Origin: Bacillota bacterium | Lineage (GTDB): Bacteria > Bacillota > Sulfobacillia > JAJYWN01 | DNA length: 46,873 nucleotides | Assembly: GCA_021791495.1 (NCBI GenBank) | Contig: JAJYWN010000030.1 | Span: 1 to 46,873 of the forward strand | Direction of reading: 5' to 3' | Part shown: positions 2,431 to 36,937 of the stretch, piece by piece | Numbering within the stretch: the stretch's first letter is position 1 | Layout: each line of letters begins with the position of its first letter | Made by a program: the position numbers and the translations under genes | Notes under the pieces: model-generated | The model's input: the letters and a program-made list of their open reading frames with translations, nothing else | Told to the model about the DNA's origin: nothing | Database searches by the model: none

Positions 2431-3276
2431 ATGGCGGCGAACGATTGGCAAGAGCTGGCCCGGGGGGTATACGCCTTGGCGACCGGTGTCAGTACGGGAC
2501 TGATCGTTTCGGATGGGCAGGCCGTGGTCGTGGATAGCTTGTGGTCTCCCAGTGATGCCAGAGAGATCCTGGCGTACCTGGAGATGAGCCACCCCGAGGC
2601 TCAGGTCAAGTGGGTCGTGAACACTCACTCGCACTGGGACCACACTTTCGGTAACCAGGCTTTCGCCGCGCCGGTGGTCGCCCAGCGGCGTGTCTACGAG
2701 GCAATGGTGACCAACCTGAGCGGCCCGTGGAGTCCGGCGGGGCTTGACCGAATGCGCCAGGAGATGGCCAATGCCCACAACCTTGAGGGGGTTCAGGTCG
2801 TTCTGCCCAGTGTGCTTTTCTACGATCAGCTTGACCTCGTCGTCGGCCGGCGTACGGTTCACCTGGCTCACTTCGGAGGGCATACTCCTGGCTCCAGTAT
2901 CGTCTTCCTACAGGAAGAGGGTATTATCTTCGCGGGCGACGATTTGGTGGTCGGGCGCTATCCCTTCATGCACCAGGCTTCAGTGGAAGAGTGGCTGGGC
3001 GCCCTGCGGGAGCTGCAGGCGATGAAGCCGAAGATTGTCGTCCCAGGTCACGGTCCTATCGTCACCGGTAGCGACATTTCCCGAGAAATAGCCAAGTTTC
3101 GACAGTACTTTGAGCAGACGATGGAAGGCGTCGAGCGACTGATGGCTGAGGGTCGGACTAAGGAAGAAGCCATGGGAAGCCCCTCCTTCCCGAAGTACTG
3201 GGAGCAGGGATACGAGCGCCTCCACCAGGCCAATATCGGCCGGGTGTGGGACGAACTGGCGGCCAAGAAACGGTAG
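2431..3276 (+). CDS. MBL-fold metallohydrolase
   Basis: A 281-residue metallo-beta-lactamase-fold hydrolase. The dinuclear metal site is complete: NTHSHWDH (His66, His68, Asp70, His71), HFGGHTPGSS (third-motif His), FAGDDLV (bridging Asp) and VPGHGP (last His). No rhodanese or flavodiiron domain is attached, so the substrate cannot be read from sequence; candidates include thioesters, lactones or other hydrolysable metabolites. The ATG has GGAGGAG nine bases upstream. It is divergent from the ferredoxin-thioredoxin gene, and the M14 peptidase starts 26 bases after its stop, so the two are probably co-transcribed. Confidence 0.87.
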   Translation: MAANDWQELARGVYALATGVSTGLIVSDGQAVVVDSLWSPSDAREILAYLEMSHPEAQVKWVVNTHSHWDHTFGNQAFAAPVVAQRRVYEAMVTNLSGPWSPAGLDRMRQEMANAHNLEGVQVVLPSVLFYDQLDLVVGRRTVHLAHFGGHTPGSSIVFLQEEGIIFAGDDLVVGRYPFMHQASVEEWLGALRELQAMKPKIVVPGHGPIVTGSDISREIAKFRQYFEQTMEGVERLMAEGRTKEEAMGSPSFPKYWEQGYERLHQANIGRVWDELAAKKR

Positions 3277-3302
3277 GAACTTGGAAGGGGAGGGGCGGCG
3301 CT

Positions 3303-5132
3303 TTGGACATCGACTTCACCCGCTACTTCAAGTACGGAGAGATTGTGGACATCCTCCGTGGTCTGGAGTCCGAGTATCCGGAACTCATGAAGGTCCTGTC
3401 GGCAGGTAAGAGCCTGGAGGGGCGGGACATTTGGTACGCGGAGATTACCAACACGCGTACCGGGCCGGCGGCGGACAAACCGGCCTACCAGATCAACGGC
3501 AACCACCACGCGGGGGAGGTCACCGGGTCTAGTGTAGCTTTGTATACCATCTGGTATCTGGTTTCGCGCTTCGGGCGCGACCGCGAGGTCACCGACCTCC
3601 TGGACACGCGGGCTTTCTATATACTACCGCGCATCGCCGTGGACGGGTCGGAACTCTATCTCACCACGCCCTACATGATCCGCAGCAGCGTCCGCCTGTA
3701 CCCCGATCCCGAAGTGGAAAAGAAGGAAGGCCTTTACCCGGACGACGTGGACGGCGACGGGCGCATCCTGCAGATGCGCGTGCCGGATCCCAACGGGGAG
3801 TGGAAGGTATCGGCGCTCGACCGGCGACTCATGGTCCGCCGCGCGCCGGATGAGAATGGAGGGGGCGGCAAAGACGGCGGGAGTGGGGCCGGCGGTGTCA
3901 CCTATTACCGCCTTTATGGCGAGGGACGGATCCGCGATTACGTGGAGGGCGGCGGGGCGCTGCGACCGGTTCCCAGCCGTTTCGGCCTGGACTTTAACCG
4001 TAATTACCCGGCTAACTGGGCTCACGAGACTAGGCAGCGCGGAGCGGGGCCCTTCCCCTTCTCCGAACCGGAAATCCGGGCCGTCGGGGAGCTTTTCATG
4101 CGGCACCGCAACATCACGGGAGCCATGTCCTACCACACCACGGGCGGGGTCTTGCTACGGCCCTTCTGCACTCAGAGCGATGACAAGATGCCGGGGCGGG
4201 ACCTCGCTGTGTACAAGGTTCTCGGTGAGCGCGGCGAGGAAATCATCGGTTACCCTTGCTGGCAGGTGTATGAGAAGTTCACCTACGACCGCGTCAGGGC
4301 GGAGGTCGGCAGCTTCCCTGAGTGGGTCTATGAGCACCTCGGCATACCGGCTTTCGAGATCGAGCTTTGGGACATGAACGGCCGTGCCGGCCTACCCAAA
4401 CGGGACACGCGACAAGCGCGGGAAGTCCCGGAGAAGGTGCGGGAGCAGGAGGCGGCCAAGCTTCTGGCCTGGAACGACCGGGAGTTGGCTGGACAAGGGT
4501 TCATCGACTGGCACCCCTTCCACCACCCGCAACTGGGCGAGGTGGAGATCGGCGGATGGGAACCCAAGTTCGTCCGCCAGAACCCGCCGGGCCGGTTCCT
4601 GCCCGAGGAGTGCCACAAGTGCTGCGTGTTCACCCTGAAGCACGCGGCGGCGTCGCCGCTGCTGCGCCTAAAGGACGTGCGGGCTACGCTGGTGGGGGCG
4701 GGCGCCATCACGACCGCGGGCGCCGGTGTGGGCGCCGGTGTGGGCGCCGGAGCGGGCGCAAATGCGGGCACCGGCGCCACCCAACTTTACAAGATCACGG
4801 CTATCCTGGAGAACCGCGGCTACCTGCCCACCAACCTGACGGACATGGCCGTGAACATCAAGGCGGCGCGGCCGGTGGTGGCTGAATTGGCGCCGGCCTC
4901 CGGGGTCAAGCTGGTATTTGGGGAGGCCCGGACCGAGACGGGTCACCTGGAGGGACGTTCGACGGCGGCCGGGTTCGGAGGCTATGGCCTGGCCGGGAAG
5001 CTTTCCGAGAAGAGGTTGGAGTGGCTGGTCCAGGCGCCGCAAGGATACCGGGGCAGGTTGGCCGGCCTTACGGTTACATCCGAAAAGGCCGGACGCGTGC
5101 GGGCGGACGTGGCAGCCGCCACTGGGGAGTAG
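3303..5132 (+). CDS. M14-family zinc carboxypeptidase, paralogue 1
   Basis: A 609-residue M14 metallocarboxypeptidase with no signal peptide. Catalytic elements in order: HHAGE (zinc ligands His69 and Glu72), LDFNRNYPANW (substrate-binding Asn-Arg), SYHTTGG (third zinc ligand), and FEIELWDM (catalytic Glu). The C-terminal 200 residues form an extra beta-type domain interrupted by a Gly/Ala-rich run (about 4690-4770) encoded by near-repeats of GGGCGCCGGTGT; a second Gly-rich loop lies near 3858-3897. TTG 3303 is preferred because AAGGGGAGGGG precedes it and the paralogues begin at the same point; an upstream in-frame start would overlap the MBL gene. It forms a run with the MBL hydrolase, a small protein and RidA. 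Two paralogues lie in the same window. Confidence 0.88.
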   Translation: MDIDFTRYFKYGEIVDILRGLESEYPELMKVLSAGKSLEGRDIWYAEITNTRTGPAADKPAYQINGNHHAGEVTGSSVALYTIWYLVSRFGRDREVTDLLDTRAFYILPRIAVDGSELYLTTPYMIRSSVRLYPDPEVEKKEGLYPDDVDGDGRILQMRVPDPNGEWKVSALDRRLMVRRAPDENGGGGKDGGSGAGGVTYYRLYGEGRIRDYVEGGGALRPVPSRFGLDFNRNYPANWAHETRQRGAGPFPFSEPEIRAVGELFMRHRNITGAMSYHTTGGVLLRPFCTQSDDKMPGRDLAVYKVLGERGEEIIGYPCWQVYEKFTYDRVRAEVGSFPEWVYEHLGIPAFEIELWDMNGRAGLPKRDTRQAREVPEKVREQEAAKLLAWNDRELAGQGFIDWHPFHHPQLGEVEIGGWEPKFVRQNPPGRFLPEECHKCCVFTLKHAAASPLLRLKDVRATLVGAGAITTAGAGVGAGVGAGAGANAGTGATQLYKITAILENRGYLPTNLTDMAVNIKAARPVVAELAPASGVKLVFGEARTETGHLEGRSTAAGFGGYGLAGKLSEKRLEWLVQAPQGYRGRLAGLTVTSEKAGRVRADVAAATGE

Positions 5133-8036: not shown

Positions 8037-9866
8037 ATGAGACAATTGGCCGATCTGACTCTGGATACGCAACGCTACTACCGCTACGACGAGATCGTCG
8101 CCTTCCTCCGGGAAGCAACGGCCGCCTACCCCGAGCTGGTCCGTGCCTACTCCATCGGACGCAGCTACGAAGGGCGCGACATTTGGATGACCGAGGTGAC
8201 CAACACCCGGACCGGACCCGCCGCGGACAAACCGGCGCTGTACATCGACGCCAACCACCATGCCGGTGAGGTGACGGGGAGCGCGGTAGCCTTGTACACC
8301 CTGTGGCTGCTGGTGACCCGTTATGGTAAACATGACGGGGCATCGGTCGTCAGCGGAGGAGGGGTAGGAGGGGGGACAGAAGGCGACGGAGGCAAGGGAG
8401 ACGCCGACAAGATTGACATAACGCGCCTCCTCGACACCACCGCCGTCTACATCCTGCCGCGCATCGCCGTGGACGGCTCCGAGCTCTACCTAACCACCCC
8501 CCAGACCTTGAGGAGCGGGCCGCGCCCCTGGCCGGACCCCGAGAACGCCGCGAAGCCGGGCCTCTATCCAGAGGACATCGATGGAGACGGGATGATCCTG
8601 CAGATGAGGGTGCCCGACCCCGCCGGGGAGTGGAAGGTCTCGGCGAAGGACCCGCGCCTGATGGTGCGCCGGGGCCCCGGCGAACAGGGAGGCACTTACT
8701 ACCGGCTCTATCCCGAAGGCCTCATCCGGAAATGGGATGGCGGCCCCTTCGAAATGGCCCCCACTCGCTTCGGCCTGGACTTCAACCGCAACTACCCCGC
8801 CTTCTGGGAACTCCCGACGCGTCAGCCGGGTTCGGGCGACTTCCCGCTTTCGGAGGCTGAATCCCGGGCGGTCGTCGGTTTCCTTTCGGCGCACCCGAAC
8901 GTCGGCGCCGTCATGTCCTACCACACCTCGGGCGGCATGATCCTCCGGCCCCTGTCCGGTGCCGCCGACGAACGCATGCCCCGGCGCGACTTTGCGGTCT
9001 ACCGGCACCTGGGCGAGAAAGGGCAGGCGGCCACCGGGTATCCCTGTTGGTCCTTGTACGAAAGCTTCATCACCGACAAGACACGTTCCACCTGCGGGGA
9101 CTTCATCCAATGGGTCTACGAATACCGCGGCATGGTCAGTTTCGCGACGGAATTGTGGGACATGGGCGGGCGCGCCGGCCTGAAGAAGCGCGACGCCCAC
9201 CAGCAGCTCAAGGTCACGGAGAAGGAGCGCGAGGAAGATGGCGCCAAGCTCCTGGCCTGGAACGACCAGACTCTGAGCGGCGAGGGGTTCGTTCCCTGGC
9301 GCCGGTTTGATCACCCGCAGTTGGGCCCGGTGGAGCTGGGCGGTTTCCTGCCGAAGACCGTCCGGCAGAACCCCCCGCCGGCGCTGCTGGAAGATGAGTG
9401 TCGCCGCAACGCCTTGTTCACCTTGATCCTGGCCGCGGCACTACCGCAGGCCGCCATCAAGGATTGGACGGTGGACCGGGTGTCGGGCTCCCTCTACCGG
9501 CTCCGGGTCACGGTGGCCAACGTGGGATACCTGGGGACGGCCGCCTCGGACATGGCCGTCTCCGCCAAGTCGGTGGGACCTTGCAAGGTATCACTGACGC
9601 TGGATAACGGCGTCTTCCTGGTCCATGGGCAGAAGACCATGGAAATAGGGCACTTGGATGGCCGGAGCGCCTCTCTCTTCGGGTCACCGGGGACGGCGGC
9701 GTCCAGCCGGCGGCTAGAGTGGCTGTTAGAGGTGAAGAGCGTGACGCCGCCCGGTGGGAAGGCCGCGGGCGGGCGCCAGAACAGTGGCGGCACCCCTGGG
9801 GTCGTGGTGACCTTCGATGGCGCGCGGGGCGGAAAAGCCTCGGCCCGGATCCCAATGTCGGAGTGA
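8037..9866 (+). CDS. M14-family zinc carboxypeptidase, paralogue 2
   Basis: A 609-residue M14 peptidase closely similar to paralogue 1 through most of its length. Zinc and catalytic motifs are complete: NHHAGEVTG, LDFNRNYPAFW, SYHTSGG, FATELWDMGG. A Gly/Asp-rich insertion (about 8350-8410) splits the segment after the HxxE helix at a place where paralogue 1 has no such insert, and a GGKAAGGRQNSGG loop lies near the C-terminus. No signal peptide, so it probably acts in the cytoplasm. ATG 8037 is given, but GGAG lies too close to it; TTG 8046, eight bases from that GGAG, matches the start of paralogue 1 and may be real. The D-aminopeptidase gene follows 67 bases later. Confidence 0.87.
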   Translation: MRQLADLTLDTQRYYRYDEIVAFLREATAAYPELVRAYSIGRSYEGRDIWMTEVTNTRTGPAADKPALYIDANHHAGEVTGSAVALYTLWLLVTRYGKHDGASVVSGGGVGGGTEGDGGKGDADKIDITRLLDTTAVYILPRIAVDGSELYLTTPQTLRSGPRPWPDPENAAKPGLYPEDIDGDGMILQMRVPDPAGEWKVSAKDPRLMVRRGPGEQGGTYYRLYPEGLIRKWDGGPFEMAPTRFGLDFNRNYPAFWELPTRQPGSGDFPLSEAESRAVVGFLSAHPNVGAVMSYHTSGGMILRPLSGAADERMPRRDFAVYRHLGEKGQAATGYPCWSLYESFITDKTRSTCGDFIQWVYEYRGMVSFATELWDMGGRAGLKKRDAHQQLKVTEKEREEDGAKLLAWNDQTLSGEGFVPWRRFDHPQLGPVELGGFLPKTVRQNPPPALLEDECRRNALFTLILAAALPQAAIKDWTVDRVSGSLYRLRVTVANVGYLGTAASDMAVSAKSVGPCKVSLTLDNGVFLVHGQKTMEIGHLDGRSASLFGSPGTAASSRRLEWLLEVKSVTPPGGKAAGGRQNSGGTPGVVVTFDGARGGKASARIPMSE

Positions 9867-9933
9867 TGTTGCGGGAGACCAAGCGAACGTTAGGACAGAC
9901 AGGAGAGAGATACGCGAAAGGAGACTGGTCCGC

Positions 9934-10764
9934 ATGAGAATCTACCTTTCCGCCGACATTGAAGGAGTGGCCGGCATCGCCAGCCGGGAGCAGATGTCGC
10001 CCGAGGGCAAGCACTGGGACGAGGGCCGCACGCTGATGACGGAGGAGACCAACGCCGCCATCAAGGGTGCCTTCGACGCCGGCGCCAATTACGTGATGGT
10101 GAACGACTCCCACGGCCACATGCACAACATCAAGCCCGACAAGCTGGACCCCCGGGCCGAGCTGTCGCAGGGGTATCCTAAGCCCCTTTACATGATGGAA
10201 GGCATCATGGACGGCTATGACTTGGCCTTCTTCGTCGGTTACCACGCTATGGTCGGCACCGCCGAAGGGGTGTTCAACCACTCCTACATCGGCCGCGGCG
10301 TCTACAACGTCCGCGTCAATGGCGTGCCCATGTCAGAGAGCGGCCTTAACGGCAAGTTGGCCGGGCATTTCGGTGTTCCCGTGGGGCTGGTGACCGGGGA
10401 CCAGAACATTATTGAACAGACCAAGCGGTTCGCCCCAGGCATCGAAGGTGTCGTGGTGAAGCACGGTCAGGGCCGCGCCAGCGCCCGTTCCCTGGCCCCC
10501 GCCAAAGCCCGCGAACTCATCTACGAGGGCGCCGTCCGGGCCGTCCACGCCCATAAAGAAGGAAAGCCGGACCGGCTCATGAAGGAAAAGACCCCGGTCA
10601 AGTGGGAAGTCGACACGGTGGCCACCTTGATGGCCGATCTGGCCTGCCTGGTGCCCGGTGTGACGCGCACGGCGGGCCGCACGGTGGCCTGGAAGAGTAA
10701 AGACTACTACGAGGGTTTCAAGACCTTCATGGCCGTGACCACCCTGTTCTACACGGTGTTATAG
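9934..10764 (+). CDS. dppA: DppA-like M55 D-aminopeptidase
   Basis: A 276-residue M55 protein, homologous to Bacillus DppA, a zinc D-aminopeptidase that forms a self-compartmentalising ring. The expected metal ligands are visible: SADIEG (Asp8 and Glu10), NDSHGHMHN (His near 60), GYHAMVG (His near 104) and PMSESGLN (Glu near 133). DppA releases D-Ala from D-Ala peptides, for example during cell-wall peptide reuse. ATG 9934 has AAAGGAG 11 bases upstream. It lies between an M14 carboxypeptidase and a nitroreductase on the same strand, suggesting a peptide-salvage unit. Substrate range is inferred from the family. Confidence 0.9.
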   Translation: MRIYLSADIEGVAGIASREQMSPEGKHWDEGRTLMTEETNAAIKGAFDAGANYVMVNDSHGHMHNIKPDKLDPRAELSQGYPKPLYMMEGIMDGYDLAFFVGYHAMVGTAEGVFNHSYIGRGVYNVRVNGVPMSESGLNGKLAGHFGVPVGLVTGDQNIIEQTKRFAPGIEGVVVKHGQGRASARSLAPAKARELIYEGAVRAVHAHKEGKPDRLMKEKTPVKWEVDTVATLMADLACLVPGVTRTAGRTVAWKSKDYYEGFKTFMAVTTLFYTVL

Positions 10765-16551: not shown

Positions 16552-16772
16552 GGGCTGCAACCACCTTTTCTCGCATTGTAACGCCGCGATGGCCCGTGTT
16601 CGGGCAAAAACAGTCTACCAAGGATATGTGAACTAACTGTGGCGCGCCCGCGTCGGTGCAAATCGCGTCCGCGCCGCGGTGAAGGACAGGTTTCCGGCGG
16701 CGAAGAATACCGCTACATGCGACTATTTTGCCTTTTCCATGTCCGCATCCTTCGAGAAAGGGGCCTTTCGGC

Positions 16773-18719
16773 ATGGGCGCCGATTTCACCCGGTTTTACA
16801 GATATGACGACCTGACCGCCCTCTTGCGACGCTGGGAAGCCGCTCATCCCGGCCTGATACGCGTGGTTTCCGCCGGCCGCGGCTACGAGGGGCGCGATAT
16901 CTGGGCGGCGGAGGTCACCGACTACTCGACGGGGTCCGCGGTGGAGAAGCCCGCGGCCTATGTGGAGGGGAATATCCACGCCGGCGAGGTCACGGGGTCC
17001 CAGGTGTGTCTATACCTGCTAGATTACCTTTTGGGGCATTTCGGCCAGGATCCTCGCGTCACCGAACTGCTCCGGACCCACACCTACTACGTTCTGCCAA
17101 GGGTGAACCCGGACGGGGCTGAGCGGCACCTGACCACCCCGGGCTCGCTGCGTAGCAGCGTGCGACCTTATCCTGACGATGACGCCGGAGAAGCGCAAGG
17201 CGCCGCGGAGGCAAAGGCGGCGGGCGGCGGACCACAGGACGGGTTGGTCCCGGAGGATGTGGACGGTGACGGGCGCATCCTCCAGATGCGGGTCGAAGAC
17301 CCCGGTGGTGAGTGGCGCGTCTCGCGCCTTGACCGGCGCCTGATGCTGCGGCGGCGGCCCTCGGACCGTCTGGAGCGGGACGGCCCGTTTTACCGTGTTC
17401 TGACCGAAGGTATCGTTGGATCCGGCGCCGCCTCCGCGGCTGGCTCTGGAACCGCCGCCGGCGCCACCACCGGTGCCACCACTGCTAACGCCGACACTGG
17501 CTCCGCGGCATCTCCCAGTCAACGCCGGATCGACCACACCTATCTGAAGTTCCCGCCGCCGCGGGCCGGGCTCGACACGAATCGCAACTGGCCGGCCAAC
17601 TGGCGCCCGGAACACATGCAGCAGGGGGCTGGGCCGTTCCCCTTGTCTGAACCCGAAACCAGGGCGGTGGCCGAGTACATGATGGCGCGCCGGAACATCG
17701 CCACGGTCATGACCTTCCACACCTCGGGCGGGCAGGTTATCCGACCCATGTCGGGCCGCAAAGACGAGGACTTGCCCAAGGCCGACGTGGCCCTGTTCGA
17801 CGCCGTCGGCCGGCGCGGGGCGGAATTGACCGGATACGACTACATGGGCGTTATGGAGTTCTCCGGAGGGAACTTCCTCTTCGGGGATTATCAGGATTGG
17901 GCGTACGAACATCTGGGCATGCTGGCCTACTGCATTGAACTGTGGAACATGGGCGGGCGGGCCGGTGTCGCCAGGCGCGGTCGGGACGCGGCGGCGACCG
18001 TTACCGAGGAAGAGCGCGGACTGGCCCTTCTGAAGTGGAACGACCGTGAGCTGCAAGGCAAAGGCTTCACGGAGTGGCATCCCTTCGACCACCTCCAACT
18101 GGGGCACGTCGAGATCGGCGGTTGGGACCGCAAGTACGTCTTGCAGAACCCGCCTGCCCAGTTCCTCTTGGGCGAGTGCCACAGTAACGCCATGTTCATG
18201 CTGGACCTCGCTGAAGCCACGCCGCTCCTGCGTTTCCGTTCGGTCGGCGCCCGGCCTGTGACCGGCTCACCAGGCCTTTTCGTGGTCACGGCCGAGGTGG
18301 AGAACGCCGGGTTCCTGCCCACTAATGTTACGGAGATGGCGCTCCAGACAGGTGTCGCCCGCACAGTGACCGCCATCTTGACGCCCGGCCCCGGGGTGAC
18401 GCTGGTGCATCCAGGGGCCAAGCAGGACCTCGGGCATCTGGCCGGTCTGGGCGACCGGGTCAATTCGGTTAGCTTCTGGATGCAGACCAGCCCGGAAAAC
18501 CGGTCGGTGGTCAAGGTCGAGTGGCTGGTGGACGCCACGATGGCGCCGGCCGGCGCCAGTGCCGACACCAGTCCCACGGCAGAGAGCGGTGCCGGTGCCG
18601 ACACCGGTGCCGGTGGTAACACCGGGGGTGGCAGCGGCGCACCCAAGGTCGAAATCGAGGCCGCCAGCCCAAAAGGTGGCCGGTGCCGGACTACGGTGGT
18701 CTTGGGCAACGAAGGTTGA
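16773..18719 (+). CDS. M14-family zinc carboxypeptidase, paralogue 3
   Basis: A 648-residue M14 peptidase, more diverged than paralogues 1 and 2. Motifs: NIHAGEVTGS (zinc ligands), LDTNRNWPANW, TFHTSGG and YCIELWNMGG (catalytic Glu kept). It carries two Ala/Gly/Thr-rich inserts: one within the catalytic domain (about 17418-17520) and one near the C-terminus (about 18547-18640), both in places that differ from the other paralogues. No signal peptide. ATG 16773 has AAAGGGG upstream and gives an N-terminus (ADFTRFYRYDDL) aligned with the paralogues; the earlier in-frame ATG at 16728 has no ribosome site. The AlbA_2 gene begins about 30 bases downstream. Confidence 0.88.
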   Translation: MGADFTRFYRYDDLTALLRRWEAAHPGLIRVVSAGRGYEGRDIWAAEVTDYSTGSAVEKPAAYVEGNIHAGEVTGSQVCLYLLDYLLGHFGQDPRVTELLRTHTYYVLPRVNPDGAERHLTTPGSLRSSVRPYPDDDAGEAQGAAEAKAAGGGPQDGLVPEDVDGDGRILQMRVEDPGGEWRVSRLDRRLMLRRRPSDRLERDGPFYRVLTEGIVGSGAASAAGSGTAAGATTGATTANADTGSAASPSQRRIDHTYLKFPPPRAGLDTNRNWPANWRPEHMQQGAGPFPLSEPETRAVAEYMMARRNIATVMTFHTSGGQVIRPMSGRKDEDLPKADVALFDAVGRRGAELTGYDYMGVMEFSGGNFLFGDYQDWAYEHLGMLAYCIELWNMGGRAGVARRGRDAAATVTEEERGLALLKWNDRELQGKGFTEWHPFDHLQLGHVEIGGWDRKYVLQNPPAQFLLGECHSNAMFMLDLAEATPLLRFRSVGARPVTGSPGLFVVTAEVENAGFLPTNVTEMALQTGVARTVTAILTPGPGVTLVHPGAKQDLGHLAGLGDRVNSVSFWMQTSPENRSVVKVEWLVDATMAPAGASADTSPTAESGAGADTGAGGNTGGGSGAPKVEIEAASPKGGRCRTTVVLGNEG

Positions 18720-24358: not shown

Positions 24359-24913
24359 TCACCGTCTAACAGATTCCGCAATCTGGAGCAGAACAGCCTT
24401 GCTGGGTTCTGACCCATCGAGACTGGTAACTCCGACGATGTAATTCATACCATCTTTCTGCCAAGCGACGGTTTTCGTGTGGACGGTACCGTCCTTATTG
24501 CTTTGTTCCAGGTACTCGCCTTGAACTCCCTGGACCGCAACCGTCGTGAGAGGCCCGCCGCCGATACGCAGACTTGATTTGGCTTGGTCGAAACCGATTA
24601 GGAGCTTCTCTCCGATGGTCCAATCGACGTGCACCCTAGTGAGGTCGAATCTACTGCTGACTGGCGGCTTCACAACATAGATCCCCTGCATTACCGCTCC
24701 TTGGGGTAATACAGACGGAAGCTGGATCTCCCAGCCTGCCGCCGTTTCCGCTTGTCCCTTATCCAACCGTTCCAGCTGTTTGGACACGGCGCTGACGGTT
24801 CCGGGGCCTTGACCAGCGGTGCCCCGCGTGGGGGCCCCCACAACGAAAACGGCGACCAGAGCAACGAACACTATGGGGAGTACCCACTTGTAACCCTTTA
24901 TCGGGGACTTCAT
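24359..24913 (-). CDS. Membrane-anchored DUF4367-like protein
   Basis: A 184-residue extracytoplasmic protein. A basic start and hydrophobic segment (KWVLPIVFVALVAVFVVG, about residues 10-27) form a signal anchor. The mature part has LPSVLPQGAVMQGIYVVKPP, a central beta-rich region, and a C-terminus WQKDGMNYIVGVTSLDGSEPSKAVLLQIAESVRR that matches the end of DUF4367 domains (test of whether a protein binds outside the membrane, often encoded with sporulation or sigma-factor genes). Exact role unknown. The upstream neighbour on the same strand, another secreted protein, ends 30 bases before its start. Confidence 0.72.
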   Translation of the reverse strand: MKSPIKGYKWVLPIVFVALVAVFVVGAPTRGTAGQGPGTVSAVSKQLERLDKGQAETAAGWEIQLPSVLPQGAVMQGIYVVKPPVSSRFDLTRVHVDWTIGEKLLIGFDQAKSSLRIGGGPLTTVAVQGVQGEYLEQSNKDGTVHTKTVAWQKDGMNYIVGVTSLDGSEPSKAVLLQIAESVRR

Positions 24914-24943
24914 GGACTCATACCTCCTCAGTCTGAACGAGGC

Positions 24944-25414
24944 TCAGGGTACGAAGATCGCCGAGGTTGTATAGGGTGAGACCAGCCAGTTCGAATAGTG
25001 CCATGTCTCGGTGTACGGGTAGTAGTTCGTGTCCGATAAGACGTCCTGGTTGTTCTCGAATTGGACGTAGGCATAGTCTGTTAGATGAAGGCCGAAAAGA
25101 GTGTCATAGCGATAGGACACGCCATACACGTTGTCAACGATGTAATGGTAACCCCATCTTGGATCGCCTCTTGTCACGGTGGCACTCGACCTGGCCTGGA
25201 CGAAATGAAGTCTGTTGGCGTTGATTTTCTGCACGTCGCTGGAAATGGTCATTCCATAGTAAGCGTCATCGTCCTGAACAGTATCCGTGCAGCTATACCA
25301 GTTGGTCCCATCGAGGACATAATGGGTATACGTGCCAGCAGCCACGATTGTAGGGAAAACTATCATAATCGCCGCCAGCACGCACAGGAACAGGAGATAA
25401 CGGATCCTCTTCAT
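24944..25414 (-). CDS. Secreted Tyr-rich hypothetical protein
   Basis: A 156-residue exported protein that I do not recognise. MKRIRYLLFLCVLAAIMIVFPTIVAAG is a textbook signal peptide. The mature part is rich in Tyr, Asp, Asn and Thr, low in Lys, and looks beta-stranded, with one Cys. ATG 25414 with GGAGGGGG upstream is preferred over a further upstream start at 25504. Base composition is closer to 50% GC than the surrounding genes, suggesting recent acquisition. Confidence 0.68.
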   Translation of the reverse strand: MKRIRYLLFLCVLAAIMIVFPTIVAAGTYTHYVLDGTNWYSCTDTVQDDDAYYGMTISSDVQKINANRLHFVQARSSATVTRGDPRWGYHYIVDNVYGVSYRYDTLFGLHLTDYAYVQFENNQDVLSDTNYYPYTETWHYSNWLVSPYTTSAIFVP

Positions 25415-26340
25415 TACGACCCCCTCCAGTTCTGGTTCTACTCGGCTTCTGAGATCCCGCGTTTGCAAGGTATTACATCTATAACACCTCCTTCCATCAT
25501 GCACAATTTAACGCTAACATAAAATGTGCATTGGAGTCAAATATCCCCATCATGTATGGTCGAGCTTATTGCCAGCTATGTTGTGCAGAGAGACGAATGG
25601 TGGCGATAAATGTAGTACGAAGCTAAGGTTACTCTCTTTACGCAGAGCCGGGAGAGTAAAAAGGAATACGCCTTGAGCCATGATTAGATGTGTTTAGCCG
25701 AGAAAGACCATGTTGGGTACGGATGATCCATGATACAGATCAGACTACCAGCGCTCCCTTACAGAAGGAAGTGGCCCCCCCCTTAATCCCTGGGTTCTCT
25801 GTGGGCGGGTCCGTGCCGGGTGGCATTCCAACGCTGGAGGTTCTTCCGCCCCCAAGTGCTGTCGCGCCGGTGTACGGAATCCGACACGCATCATGAGAGC
25901 GGGGCATCAACCCATTGCAGGTCACTTCTTCGCCCGCCAAGTAGCCTCCGGGGCCGCTAGTAACGGACCCCGAAAAGCACGACTTGGGCGCCAAGGGTGC
26001 TTCCCGACGCCCCGTTCGGATTCTTTGATTCGCACGGCGCAGGTCATGGTAACGTCGCCTGCCTGGCCCCTCTTGGGATACCCGTTCCGTTCCCCTGCAG
26101 TTGTGTAGGCGGGGAACCTACATAACCACCGGGCCGCCTACAGCAGTCACGGAGGGGTTGGACACCGCAGGATTCCCCCTGCCCACAGTTGAGGGTGGAC
26201 CTTTCGGCCAGGTGACCGGGTAGATGTCGACGTATACCTTGGGGCAGTATCTGGAGACATTACCCTGGGCGCTCCCCGATGGAAAGTCATACCATTGCAG
26301 ATTTGGCGCCCGCCTCCTGACCTTTTTTGCCCTTTGGTCG
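25415..26340. other. About 0.9 kb with no supported gene; contains inverted repeats
   Basis: Lower-GC stretch before the groES promoter. It holds ATGCACA (25499-25505) paired with TGTGCAT (25525-25531) around the likely promoter of the leftward secreted protein, and a TTACTCTC/GAGAGTAA hairpin (25629-25669). Minus-strand fragments (25740-25994 and about 26150-26330) read partly protein-like but have no start signals and are broken by stops; they could be remnants of a decayed gene. Confidence 0.45.
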
Positions 26341-26854: not shown

Positions 26855-28483
<1,629 letters not shown>

Positions 28484-29139: not shown

Positions 29140-29559
29140 TCAGGCCATCCCCTGGGCGGGCTGCGTGGGCTGCAATAGGACGAAGCCGTTGCCGTAGAGA
29201 TCCTGAAAAACCGCTTCTAGACCGTGGGGTTGCTGTTTTGGAAGAGCGTTGAACACCACGCCCTTGGCCTTTAGTCTTTCGTATTCGGCCTGGCAGTCGT
29301 CGGTGTAGAAAACCCACGGCGTGCTTTGGCCCAGCCTGGCCAGGAGGCGTCGGCCTTCCTCCGGACCGAGCCAGACCACCGGATTATGCAGGACGATCTC
29401 CACTTCGGTCTGGTCCTGAGGCGCTACTGTCAACCAGCGGAAACCTGGGCCGAAACGTACATCGGCCGTCTTCTTGAACCCCAGGATATCCACATAGAAG
29501 TGAAGAGCTTCGTCTTCGTCCCGTACCAGGATGGTTACTCGGGCCAGTTTCTCGATCAA
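29140..29559 (-). CDS. VOC-family (glyoxalase/bleomycin-resistance fold) protein
   Basis: A 139-residue vicinal-oxygen-chelate protein: LARVTILVRDEDEALHFYVDILGFKKTADVRFG at the start and the second beta-alpha-beta-beta-beta half ending in GLEAVFQDLYGNGFVLLQP. These dimeric proteins act as lyases, dioxygenases or antibiotic binders; which cannot be said. TTG start at 29559 with GGAGGA about nine bases upstream. It follows the YHS gene by 27 bases on the same strand. Confidence 0.87.
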   Translation of the reverse strand: MIEKLARVTILVRDEDEALHFYVDILGFKKTADVRFGPGFRWLTVAPQDQTEVEIVLHNPVVWLGPEEGRRLLARLGQSTPWVFYTDDCQAEYERLKAKGVVFNALPKQQPHGLEAVFQDLYGNGFVLLQPTQPAQGMA

Positions 29560-29586
29560 CAGTCTCGTCCTCCGATCCCCGAACCT

Positions 29587-30162
29587 TCACAGGTTCTTTC
29601 CGAAATCCCGGCCGGCACGGTACCCGCCTTTGCCGCCGGCGCTGCCCCCGGACTGCCTGGAGTTGATCGGCCGGTGGGCTGCGGGTGCACCGGGGCTGCT
29701 GTAAGGGAAATGGCCGGAGGAACTGCCGTAGTCGCCGCCGCCGCCCGAGGCGGAAGAGTGCACGCCCTCAGCCTGGGCCCGCTCTGACCTGCCGGTGCCG
29801 GGCACGCCTGTAGGGCCGAACTCGGTCGCTATCTCGTTCAGGTCATCGCCGGACCGACGGCCGGCTTCCGATGGGACAGCCGCGGCTCCTCCGCCCTCGC
29901 CAAGGTTTCCTGCCTCGCCTGTTTCCCGCCCGTGCTGCCAGTCGTCGGCCCATTCGCCAACATAGCGGCGGGGTTCGCGCTCGAAAGATTGCTGGCAAGT
30001 GGATCCGCAGAAGTAGAAGTCCTTCCCGCCGTGTGAGGAATGGAATCCGGTGTGCTCAGTCACCGGCATGCCACATACCGGGTCACGTCTTTCGCCGGCG
30101 TCCCTGGTCCCGAAGTTACCCTTGCTGTGCTCCATGTCACCGTAGCCTCTGTCTTTCGCCAA
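29587..30162 (-). CDS. YHS-domain protein with a Gly/Ser-rich tail
   Basis: A 191-residue protein. Residues about 24-68 form a YHS domain: DPVCGMPV, then FHSSHGGKDFYFCGSTCQQSFEREPRRYVG with the three conserved Cys. YHS domains occur at the ends of metal-transport ATPases and monooxygenases and probably bind a metal. The remaining 120 residues are low-complexity, rich in Gly, Ser and Ala, with no recognisable fold. TTG start at 30162 with AGGAGG eight or so bases upstream. Likely a two-gene run with the VOC protein. Confidence 0.78.
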   Translation of the reverse strand: MAKDRGYGDMEHSKGNFGTRDAGERRDPVCGMPVTEHTGFHSSHGGKDFYFCGSTCQQSFEREPRRYVGEWADDWQHGRETGEAGNLGEGGGAAAVPSEAGRRSGDDLNEIATEFGPTGVPGTGRSERAQAEGVHSSASGGGGDYGSSSGHFPYSSPGAPAAHRPINSRQSGGSAGGKGGYRAGRDFGKNL

Positions 30163-33885: not shown

Positions 33886-34004
33886 GGTCCGGCCGGCGCC
33901 TCGGCCAAGCAGGAGGAGGTTCACCGTCTCCCGAAAACCTGCCTGACGGCATACACTACACTCTGCTCTGCCGAAACCGCCGTCGAAAGGTGTGCGTAAG
34001 CTCC

Positions 34005-35108
34005 ATGTCGGTAGACTTACCGCCGGTCAGACTGACTTCCCTGACCGGCAAGGCGGGCTGAGGGTGCAAAATCGGTCCTGGTGACCTGGTGCAGGTCCTG
34101 CGCCACCTTCCTCCCACAATTCCAAACCCTGACCTTCTGGTCGGCCTGGATACCGGCGACGATGCCGGCGTCTACCGGCTTACGGAGGAGCTGGCCCTGG
34201 TACAGACGGTCGACTACTTCACACCCGTGGTGGACGACCCCTACGCCTTCGGCCAGATCGCCGCGGCCAACGCCCTCAGCGACCTGTACGCCATGGGGGC
34301 CCGGCCCCTCACGGCCTTAAACATCGTCGGCTTCCCCATCAAGAAGCTGCCCCATGCCGTGCTCGGTCAGATTCTGTGCGGCGGGGCGGATAAACTGGCC
34401 GAAGCCGGCTGCGCCCTCCTCGGCGGGCATTCCATCGACGACGCGGAACCCAAATACGGGTTGGCGGTGACGGGCGTCGTTCATCCCGCCAAGGCCGTCA
34501 CCAACGGGGGCGCCATGGCGGGCGACGCGCTGGTACTGACCAAACCCATCGGTATCGGCATCGTCACCACGGCACACAAGCGCGGGTTAGCCTCGCCGGC
34601 CACGGTGGAGCGGGTGACGGCGCTCATGGCGACCTTGAACAAGGCTGCCTCGGGGGCCATGGTGGACGCCGGCGCTTCGGCGTGCACCGACATCACTGGC
34701 TTCGGGCTCCTGGGGCACGCGTCGGAAATGGCGCGGGCCAGCGGGGTGGGGCTGGAGATCCGCGCCGCGGCGGTGCCCATTCTGGAGGAGACCTGGGAGT
34801 TCTTGCGGGCCGGCGCCATTCCCGGCGGGTCCAAGGCGAACCTGGAGTTCATCACCGCCGCCGATCCGGTGGGCGGGGGAGGCGCCGCCGCCGAGGGCGG
34901 CCCTTTGGTGGAATTCGCCGCCGGCGTTACCGGCGAGATGCGCGCCGTGCTGGCCGATGCCTGCACTTCGGGCGGGCTCCTGATCAGCATCACCGAATCT
35001 AGGCTAGAGAAGTTGTTGGGGCTCCTGGCCGCCAAGGGGGTAGAAACCCGCGCCGTCATCGGCCGCGCGGTGGCCGAGCACCCCGGCAGAATAATGGTTA
35101 CCGAATAG
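34005..35108 (+). CDS. selD: Selenide, water dikinase (selenophosphate synthetase) containing selenocysteine at an in-frame UGA
   Basis: SelD makes selenophosphate from selenide and ATP for selenocysteine and selenouridine. Standard gene finding would begin at 34089, but the frame is continuous from ATG 34005 if the TGA at 34059-34061 is read as Sec. The N-terminus then reads VRLTSLTGKAG-U-GCKIGPGDLVQVLRHLP, matching the family block in which Sec/Cys and Lys three residues later are catalytic. Further motifs: DDAGVY, QTVDYFTP, ANALSDLYAMGARP, GGHSIDD, DITGFGLLGH and GGLLIS. With the Sec included the protein is 367 residues, usual for the family. A stem-loop follows the UGA. AAAGGTG lies upstream of the ATG. 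Confidence 0.93.
34059..34098 (+). promoter_or_regulatory. Bacterial SECIS-like element of selD
   Basis: Starting at the UGA, a hairpin with the perfect stem GACCTG-GTG-CAGGTC (34083-34097) places its loop about 30 bases downstream. Bacterial SECIS elements sit within about 40 bases of the UGA and present a G/U in a short loop for SelB. The stem and loop are seen; SelB recognition is inferred. Confidence 0.6.
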
Positions 35109-35143
35109 CCATCATTTCGAACTGAACTTAGGAGACTTTGTCC

Positions 35144-36937
35144 ATGCCCACGGCCGAAAAGCCGCTAGAAATCGTCCCGACGTCGTACTCCAACCCGCTG
35201 GTCAACCATTTCCTCTACGACTTCTCGCGTGTCGGGCGGTTCTTCGGCTATGACCCGCACGGGCTCCCGTCCTTCGAGGGGCGGGCCGCTTTCCTCCGGG
35301 GGCGCTACGGCCCCGGGCACCTGGGGGCCGTGGCGGACGTCCTCGAAAGCTACAACCGTGCACTGGGCGCGGGGCGCGACACGCTGGCTAACATCGAGAA
35401 GCTGCGGCGCGGGGCCTTGGTGGTCATCGGCGGGCAGCAGGCCGGCGTGTTGACCGGCCCGCTCTACGCCGTCCACAAAGCCATCACGGCCGTCCAACTG
35501 GCCCGCTATCTCTCCTCGGAACTGGGCGTGGAGGTGGTCCCGGCCTTCTGGGTGGCCTCTGACGACCACGACTTCGCCGAAATCGACCACGTGGACGTTC
35601 TGAAGCTGGCCGGAGCCGGGGGCGCGGCAGCGGCCGGTGCCACCATCGAACGCCTGCACCTGACTCCGCCGGAAGGGGCCGGTGATTTCCCGTCCGGCGT
35701 GCTGCCTTGTATCCCCGAAGCGGTGAACGGGCTGTTGGACGCCTTGGCGGCGGCCACCCCACCCAGCGAGTTTAAGGGCTCTGTCCTCCAGAAAGCCCGC
35801 GACCTGGCCGCCCAGTCGACGAGCCTGGCCGAATGGTTCGGACGCCTGATGACCCTCATCTTCGAGGGTACCGGCCTGATCTTGGTCGATCCCATGGCGC
35901 CCGGTTTCAAGACCCTGCCGGCTCACACGGACCCTGACGGGGAGGCGTTCTTCCGTGCCGGTGAGGCGGATTCCGGAATGCGGTCCGGGGCCGAGAAACG
36001 CCGCCACCGCACCCCGCCGGCGCCGGCCATGGCCCATTTCGTCTCCAGGACTGCCGCGATAGCGCAGGCCTTGGAAACCCGGAGCCGGGAACTGTCGGAG
36101 GCGGGTTACCCCCTTCAAGTCGAGAAGGGCCCTACCCACTCGCACCTTTTCATGTACCTTTCCTGGCGCCGGCGCCCCGTGTACTGGGACCCCGCCGCCG
36201 GCCGGTTCGTCGTGCGCCGCGCCGGTCTGTCCATGAGCTCAGAAGAGTTCTTCACCGCAGTCTGCGGAAACCCCGAGGCGGTCAGCCCCGACGTGGTGCT
36301 GCGGCCGGTGCTGCAGGACATGGTCCTGCCGGTCATCGCCATGTTGGGCGGGCCGGGGGAAATCTCCTACATGGCGCAGCTGGGGAGGGTATACCGCCTC
36401 TTCGATATGGAACTGCCGGTGGTGTTCCCCCGATTGAACCTGACCTTGCTGGAACCGGCTGAGGAGCGGCTGTTGGAGAAGTACGGCCTTGGGGTCACCA
36501 CCATCGCCGCCGCCGGCGGCCTGGCGACCGCCCGTGACACCTACCTGGCCCAGGCCGACAAGGTAGGCCTCCCCGACCTCTTTGCCTCCGCCCGTGACCG
36601 GGTGGCCGGGGTCTATGCCGACCTCCGCGACGCCTTGGCCGCCGTGGACAAGGGGTTGGTGACGTTGGCCGGCGAGAACGAGAAGCGGGTGGTGGACCAG
36701 ATTGCCTGGCTGGAGGGTCGGGCCACGCAGGCCCACCGCAAGGCCAACGACTTGGCCCTGGGCCACTTCGACCGCCTGGAGAAGGCTTATCGGCCCGAAG
36801 GTAACTGGCAGGAACGGGTCTACAACATCTTCCCCTTCCTGTTCAAATACGGGCCGGAGCTGTGCCGCCGGCTGTGCGATCGGCCACTGCTCGGTGAAGC
36901 CCCCTTCGATTTCGGCCACCGCTTTATCACCCTCTAG
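35144..36937 (+). CDS. bshC: BshC, putative cysteine ligase of bacillithiol synthesis
   Basis: A 597-residue BshC, the enzyme assigned to add Cys to GlcN-malate in the last step of bacillithiol synthesis. Diagnostic blocks: VVIGGQQAGVLTGPLYAVHKAITA, VVPAFWVASDDHDFAEIDHV, VEKGPTHSHLFMYL, VRPVLQDMVLPVIAMLGGPGEISYMAQL and PVVFPRLNLTLLEP; the C-terminal coiled coil (about 480-560) is also typical. ATG 35144 has TAGGAG nine bases upstream. bshA and bshB are not in the window. It follows selD by 35 bases, so selenium and low-molecular-weight thiol functions are joined here. Confidence 0.93.
   Translation: MPTAEKPLEIVPTSYSNPLVNHFLYDFSRVGRFFGYDPHGLPSFEGRAAFLRGRYGPGHLGAVADVLESYNRALGAGRDTLANIEKLRRGALVVIGGQQAGVLTGPLYAVHKAITAVQLARYLSSELGVEVVPAFWVASDDHDFAEIDHVDVLKLAGAGGAAAAGATIERLHLTPPEGAGDFPSGVLPCIPEAVNGLLDALAAATPPSEFKGSVLQKARDLAAQSTSLAEWFGRLMTLIFEGTGLILVDPMAPGFKTLPAHTDPDGEAFFRAGEADSGMRSGAEKRRHRTPPAPAMAHFVSRTAAIAQALETRSRELSEAGYPLQVEKGPTHSHLFMYLSWRRRPVYWDPAAGRFVVRRAGLSMSSEEFFTAVCGNPEAVSPDVVLRPVLQDMVLPVIAMLGGPGEISYMAQLGRVYRLFDMELPVVFPRLNLTLLEPAEERLLEKYGLGVTTIAAAGGLATARDTYLAQADKVGLPDLFASARDRVAGVYADLRDALAAVDKGLVTLAGENEKRVVDQIAWLEGRATQAHRKANDLALGHFDRLEKAYRPEGNWQERVYNIFPFLFKYGPELCRRLCDRPLLGEAPFDFGHRFITL

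Follow-up and report, generated by a model that had tools for sequence, protein, structure and literature searches.

The question raised by this locus is whether the in-frame TGA near the start of a selD-like reading frame is a stop codon or a codon for selenocysteine (Sec). The window, by which we mean the whole stretch of 46,873 nucleotides that was analysed, belongs to a Bacillota genome (G000) of 4.2 Mb in 81 contigs, with 97% completeness and a contamination estimate of 4.2%. The features concerned are the following, with the reading frame translated using TGA as U.

33987-33993, + strand: probable Shine-Dalgarno sequence AAAGGTG, judged from the sequence, 11 nt upstream of the ATG at 34005
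34005-35108, + strand: selD, selenide water dikinase, 367 aa, with predicted Sec at residue 19 (TIGR00476, E 1.2e-113; PDB 3u0o, E 6.7e-74)
34059-34061, + strand: predicted Sec codon, an in-frame UGA (codon 19) at the catalytic Cys/Sec position (AG-U-GCK)

The 367-codon frame runs from the ATG at 34005 to a stop at 35106-35108, and the TGA at 34059-34061 is its sole internal stop, confirming the continuity described in the original prediction. Over residues 9-332 the read-through product scored 379 bits with TIGR00476 (selD; cut-off 125), and both PF00586 and PF02769 were recovered, as for a full-length SelD. Residue 19 aligned to the catalytic-loop Cys of the E. coli (3u0o, 'AGCGCKI') and Aquifex (2yye) enzymes, and the loop itself reads KAG-U-GCKIG with Lys22 at +3 from the UGA, which bears out the earlier placement of the codon in the SelD catalytic block, three residues before a Lys. 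It had also been expected that ordinary gene calling would drop the catalytic N-terminus, and the mechanical ORF list indeed starts selD at GTG 34089, inside the hairpin described below, with loss of the catalytic loop.

The same codon was examined in homologues. A search of 154 genomes of the class yielded 124 SelD genes, spread over 108 of the genomes, and 122 of these genes have exactly one in-frame TGA (totals tallied by hand from the search tables); the two genes without TGA (G022 and G091) both encode Cys at the Sec position. In the named homologues that were read, the corresponding codon is TGA or a Cys codon, with Sec-SelD in Desulfosporosinus, Acididesulfobacillus, Melghirimyces, Kroppenstedtia and others, and Cys-SelD in Paenibacillus, Bacillus and relatives. 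Sec-SelD is a well-known family, described in Firmicutes/Clostridia such as Moorella thermoacetica and Clostridium difficile (Zhang et al. 2006, PMC1794560), and the window gene is a further example of it. These proteins and the Desulfosporosinus SelDs (L039, L049 and L056) share with it the UGA codon, the AGUGCKIG block and the downstream hairpin; the Desulfosporosinus proteins are 55-56% identical to the window SelD, and sequence divergence is the only difference. The Cys-SelDs of Bacilli (Paenibacillus and relatives, L018-L035) and E. coli SelD (3u0o) have the family, the loop and a similar length in common with the window protein, whereas in the Bacilli genes the codon is TGC or TGT, not TGA, and the SECIS hairpin is absent. 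As a separate observation, the second loop Cys is missing in the Sec-SelDs at L120, L121, L123, L125, L127, L129 and L130, where UAAK, UASK or UAGK replaces UGCK.

Downstream of the UGA a candidate bacterial SECIS element (bSECIS) was located.

34088-34104, + strand: bSECIS hairpin, stem 34088-34094 with 34098-34104 plus the pair U34087-A34105, apical loop GUC (GGUCC if the top pair opens)

With a stem of 7-8 bp, a GUC loop, a UGA-to-loop distance of 33 nt and a fold of -11.7 kcal/mol, the hairpin lies within the published bSECIS constraints, namely a stem of 4-16 bp, a loop of 3-9 nt with G in its first two positions, a distance of 16-37 nt from the UGA and an energy of at most -7.5 kcal/mol (PMC13188914). 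The original prediction had a stem-loop about 24-38 bases beyond the UGA; its presence was upheld and its position revised to 27-43 nt, the end coordinate of 34098 given earlier cutting the hairpin in half. Bacterial SECIS prediction had been proposed as a check, and the hairpin is now backed by both covariation and a Cys-SelD control. Of 61 distinct Sec-SelD genes, 82% can form at least six of the seven stem pairs, versus 2% of 55 distinct Cys-SelD genes, the latter coming largely from one clade of Bacilli and encoding related proteins, and the mean fold at the site is -10.2 kcal/mol in the Sec-SelDs versus -3.8 in the Cys-SelDs. One stem pair covaries synonymously in 47 of 47 cases: Gln CAG is matched by Leu CTG in 26 of them and CAA by TTG in the other 21, with no mismatched combination (Fisher p 8e-14, a value that ignores the kinship of these sequences). 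At another position, an Ala third base of G, A or U mostly pairs with a codon CGN, UGY or AGC, respectively; with A or U there, the partner codon usually switches from Arg to Cys or Ser and the pair is kept (the exception being one sequence), so that the compensatory change alters the encoded amino acid. Together with the Cys-SelD control, this covariation is strong evidence for selection on the RNA, with the reservation that the sequences are related.

When the 60 nt after the UGA were folded as a whole they did no better than shuffles (z -1.0), the signal being confined to the local hairpin, and in 10% of trials synonymous recoding of this single sequence produced a hairpin just as good; the case for a SECIS element therefore comes from the comparison and not from this one sequence. 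The GCAGGUC apex is identical to that of the E. coli fdhF SECIS, from which the selD hairpin differs in having a stem with no bulged U and a loop further from the UGA. No Rfam family reached its gathering threshold anywhere in the window. Set against its Cys homologues as control, selD is a clean comparative case of a SECIS lying inside the gene.

The original prediction implied that selA, selB and selC would be found elsewhere in the genome, and held that absence of selB and tRNA-Sec would tell against it. All three are present on one contig.

C47:39803-41194: selA, 582 bits, adjoining selB
C47, 695-codon frame: selB, 331 bits against a cut-off of 242, adjoining selA
C47:69212-69304: tRNA-Sec (selC), 70.9 bits, 28 kb from selA/selB

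ARAGORN likewise called the last of these as tRNA-SeC with anticodon TCA. Taken together, the SelD frame and homology, the position of the UGA, the SECIS hairpin, the selA, selB and selC genes and the conservation lead us to read 34059-34061 as a selenocysteine codon, and the window selD almost certainly encodes a Sec-containing selenophosphate synthetase. On this evidence selenocysteine, the 21st amino acid, is part of the organism's repertoire, and the selD annotation is corrected to include a real catalytic N-terminus. For Sec insertion in practice and for enzymatic activity we infer from known biology. The codon-19 UGA would be decoded by tRNA-Sec(UCA), with SelB binding the hairpin just 3' of the UGA and then delivering the tRNA; SelA would make Sec-tRNA from selenophosphate, itself the product of SelD; and Sec19 and Lys22, in the flexible N-terminal loop, would handle selenide for phosphorylation.

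Three other explanations of the UGA were weighed. The one that survives best, and still very improbable, is that it is a true stop, leaving either a decaying pseudogene or a SelD that restarts at GTG 34089 with no catalytic loop. A mechanical ORF from 34089 does exist, but that GTG sits within the conserved hairpin, the codons upstream of the UGA are conserved (RLTSLTGKAG), the remainder of selD is intact, and one in-frame TGA recurs in 122 of the 124 class homologues while the genome holds the Sec machinery. Still more improbable is a Cys codon turned into TGA by sequencing or assembly error, for which a single base change (TGC to TGA) would suffice; it is refuted by conservation, since independent genomes carry the same TGA, as does the second selD here. 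Conservation thereby excludes both a pseudogene and a sequence error. A code in which UGA is an ordinary sense codon (Trp or Gly) would equally give a functional gene with one in-frame UGA, but this, the least credible of the three, is refuted by the use of TGA to terminate 7 of 23 checked window genes, alongside the presence of tRNA-Sec, SelA and SelB and the fact that no Pfam domain was noticed across another TGA in the read-through frames tested.

With UGA read as Sec, other genes with internal TGAs were expected to need review, which proved right for the genome; within the window, none was found among the frames tested by codon usage, a test that is insensitive to N-terminal UGAs and did not list selD, or by Pfam matches to read-through frames. 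One weak codon-usage candidate, at 27310 (- strand), was rejected; it lies opposite a Cpn60/TCP1-family gene (26858-28483). In the same-frame ORF pair at 29140-30162 (- strand) a glyoxalase gene follows a YHS-domain gene, and the TGA was accordingly taken as an ordinary stop; the pair at 24359-25504 (- strand) gave no family match. Two genes elsewhere in the genome carry in-frame UGAs.

C51:72754-73230 (locus L157), - strand: peroxiredoxin-like gene with two in-frame UGAs (UxxU active site; GYW-U-GP-U-RKQL)
C54:48812-49855 (locus L099:1480-2526), + strand: second selD, with an in-frame UGA (GSG-U-ACKVG)

About 17 nt beyond its second UGA the peroxiredoxin-like gene has a hairpin whose apex is AGUU, and a homologue with the same UxxU and 51% identity is encoded at G030:C86:295-732 (L158). 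Ocean metagenomes are already known to encode UxxU in a distant Prx-like family (PMC2398784). The formate dehydrogenase alpha subunit at C7:90307-92475 has no UGA although the genome uses Sec, a search of the genome for SelU/YbbB (selenouridine synthase) gave no match, and a GrdB search returned zero matches, as did its control. The selenoprotein genes found so far are only the two SelD copies and the Prx-like gene. The second selD, the UxxU gene and the selD-bshC pair described below are more unusual results than Sec-SelD itself.

The second selD is 51% identical to the window gene and carries the same SECIS hairpin. A maximum-likelihood tree places it in a seven-gene clade (support 100/99) whose members each come from a different genome, and every one of these genomes holds another SelD too; it is a member of an old paralogue clade. 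A wider search, in which the type was assigned by identity to the query while the tree covers the seven-gene clade, gave 14 genes in 13 genomes; 13 of the genes encode Sec and one encodes Cys, and one of the genomes, G083, has no SelD of another type. Of the 13 loci examined, each from a different genome, 12 have a LysR gene adjoining the second selD (G020 being the one where it was not found), and several have DsrE-family genes in the neighbourhood. The best family for this regulator is NF040786 (LysR_Se), a proposed selenium regulator (PMC5322559), at 223.5 and 225.8 bits, under the curated cut-off of 250; it is selenium-LysR-like and not a confirmed member. As of 2005, the only genome reported with two selDs was that of Photobacterium profundum (Romero et al. 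2005, PMC1273633), which has one Sec and one Cys copy, whereas both copies here are Sec. A literature search of incomplete coverage found no paper on two Sec selD copies in one genome.

The window selD is followed closely by a gene for bacillithiol synthesis.

35144-36937, + strand: bshC, bacillithiol cysteine-adding enzyme (TIGR03998, E 4.7e-127), starting 35 nt past the selD stop

This same-strand pair (34005-36937) occurs in 12 class genomes from seven families, the present one included, in 13 Desulfosporosinus records and in one Halothermothrix MAG (further loci L039, L049, L056, L079, L080, L102-L108, L111 and L113). Among the Cys-SelD and second-selD loci examined, most of them with flanks of 1.5 kb, none showed it, and it is not universal, the bshA-positive genomes G044 and G026 being among those without it. 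Since bshA was above cut-off in all 12 class genomes with the pair, these probably make bacillithiol. The pairing hints that bacillithiol may feed selenium to SelD; a literature search of incomplete coverage found no paper linking the two. The in vivo selenium delivery system for SelD is an open question according to a 2026 review (PMC13188914), and the occurrence of the pair across distant Bacillota makes bacillithiol a testable candidate. A bolder and rather unlikely proposal is that the two selDs encode Sec isoenzymes that differ in how they are fed and regulated, the window copy being co-transcribed with bshC, with bacillithiol delivering reduced selenium to SelD, and the C54 copy belonging to a LysR/DsrE-linked, selenium-responsive module.

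Elsewhere in the window, three M14 zinc carboxypeptidase genes (3246-5132, 8037-9866 and 16728-18719) and an M55 D-aminopeptidase gene (9817-10764) all lie within 16 kb.
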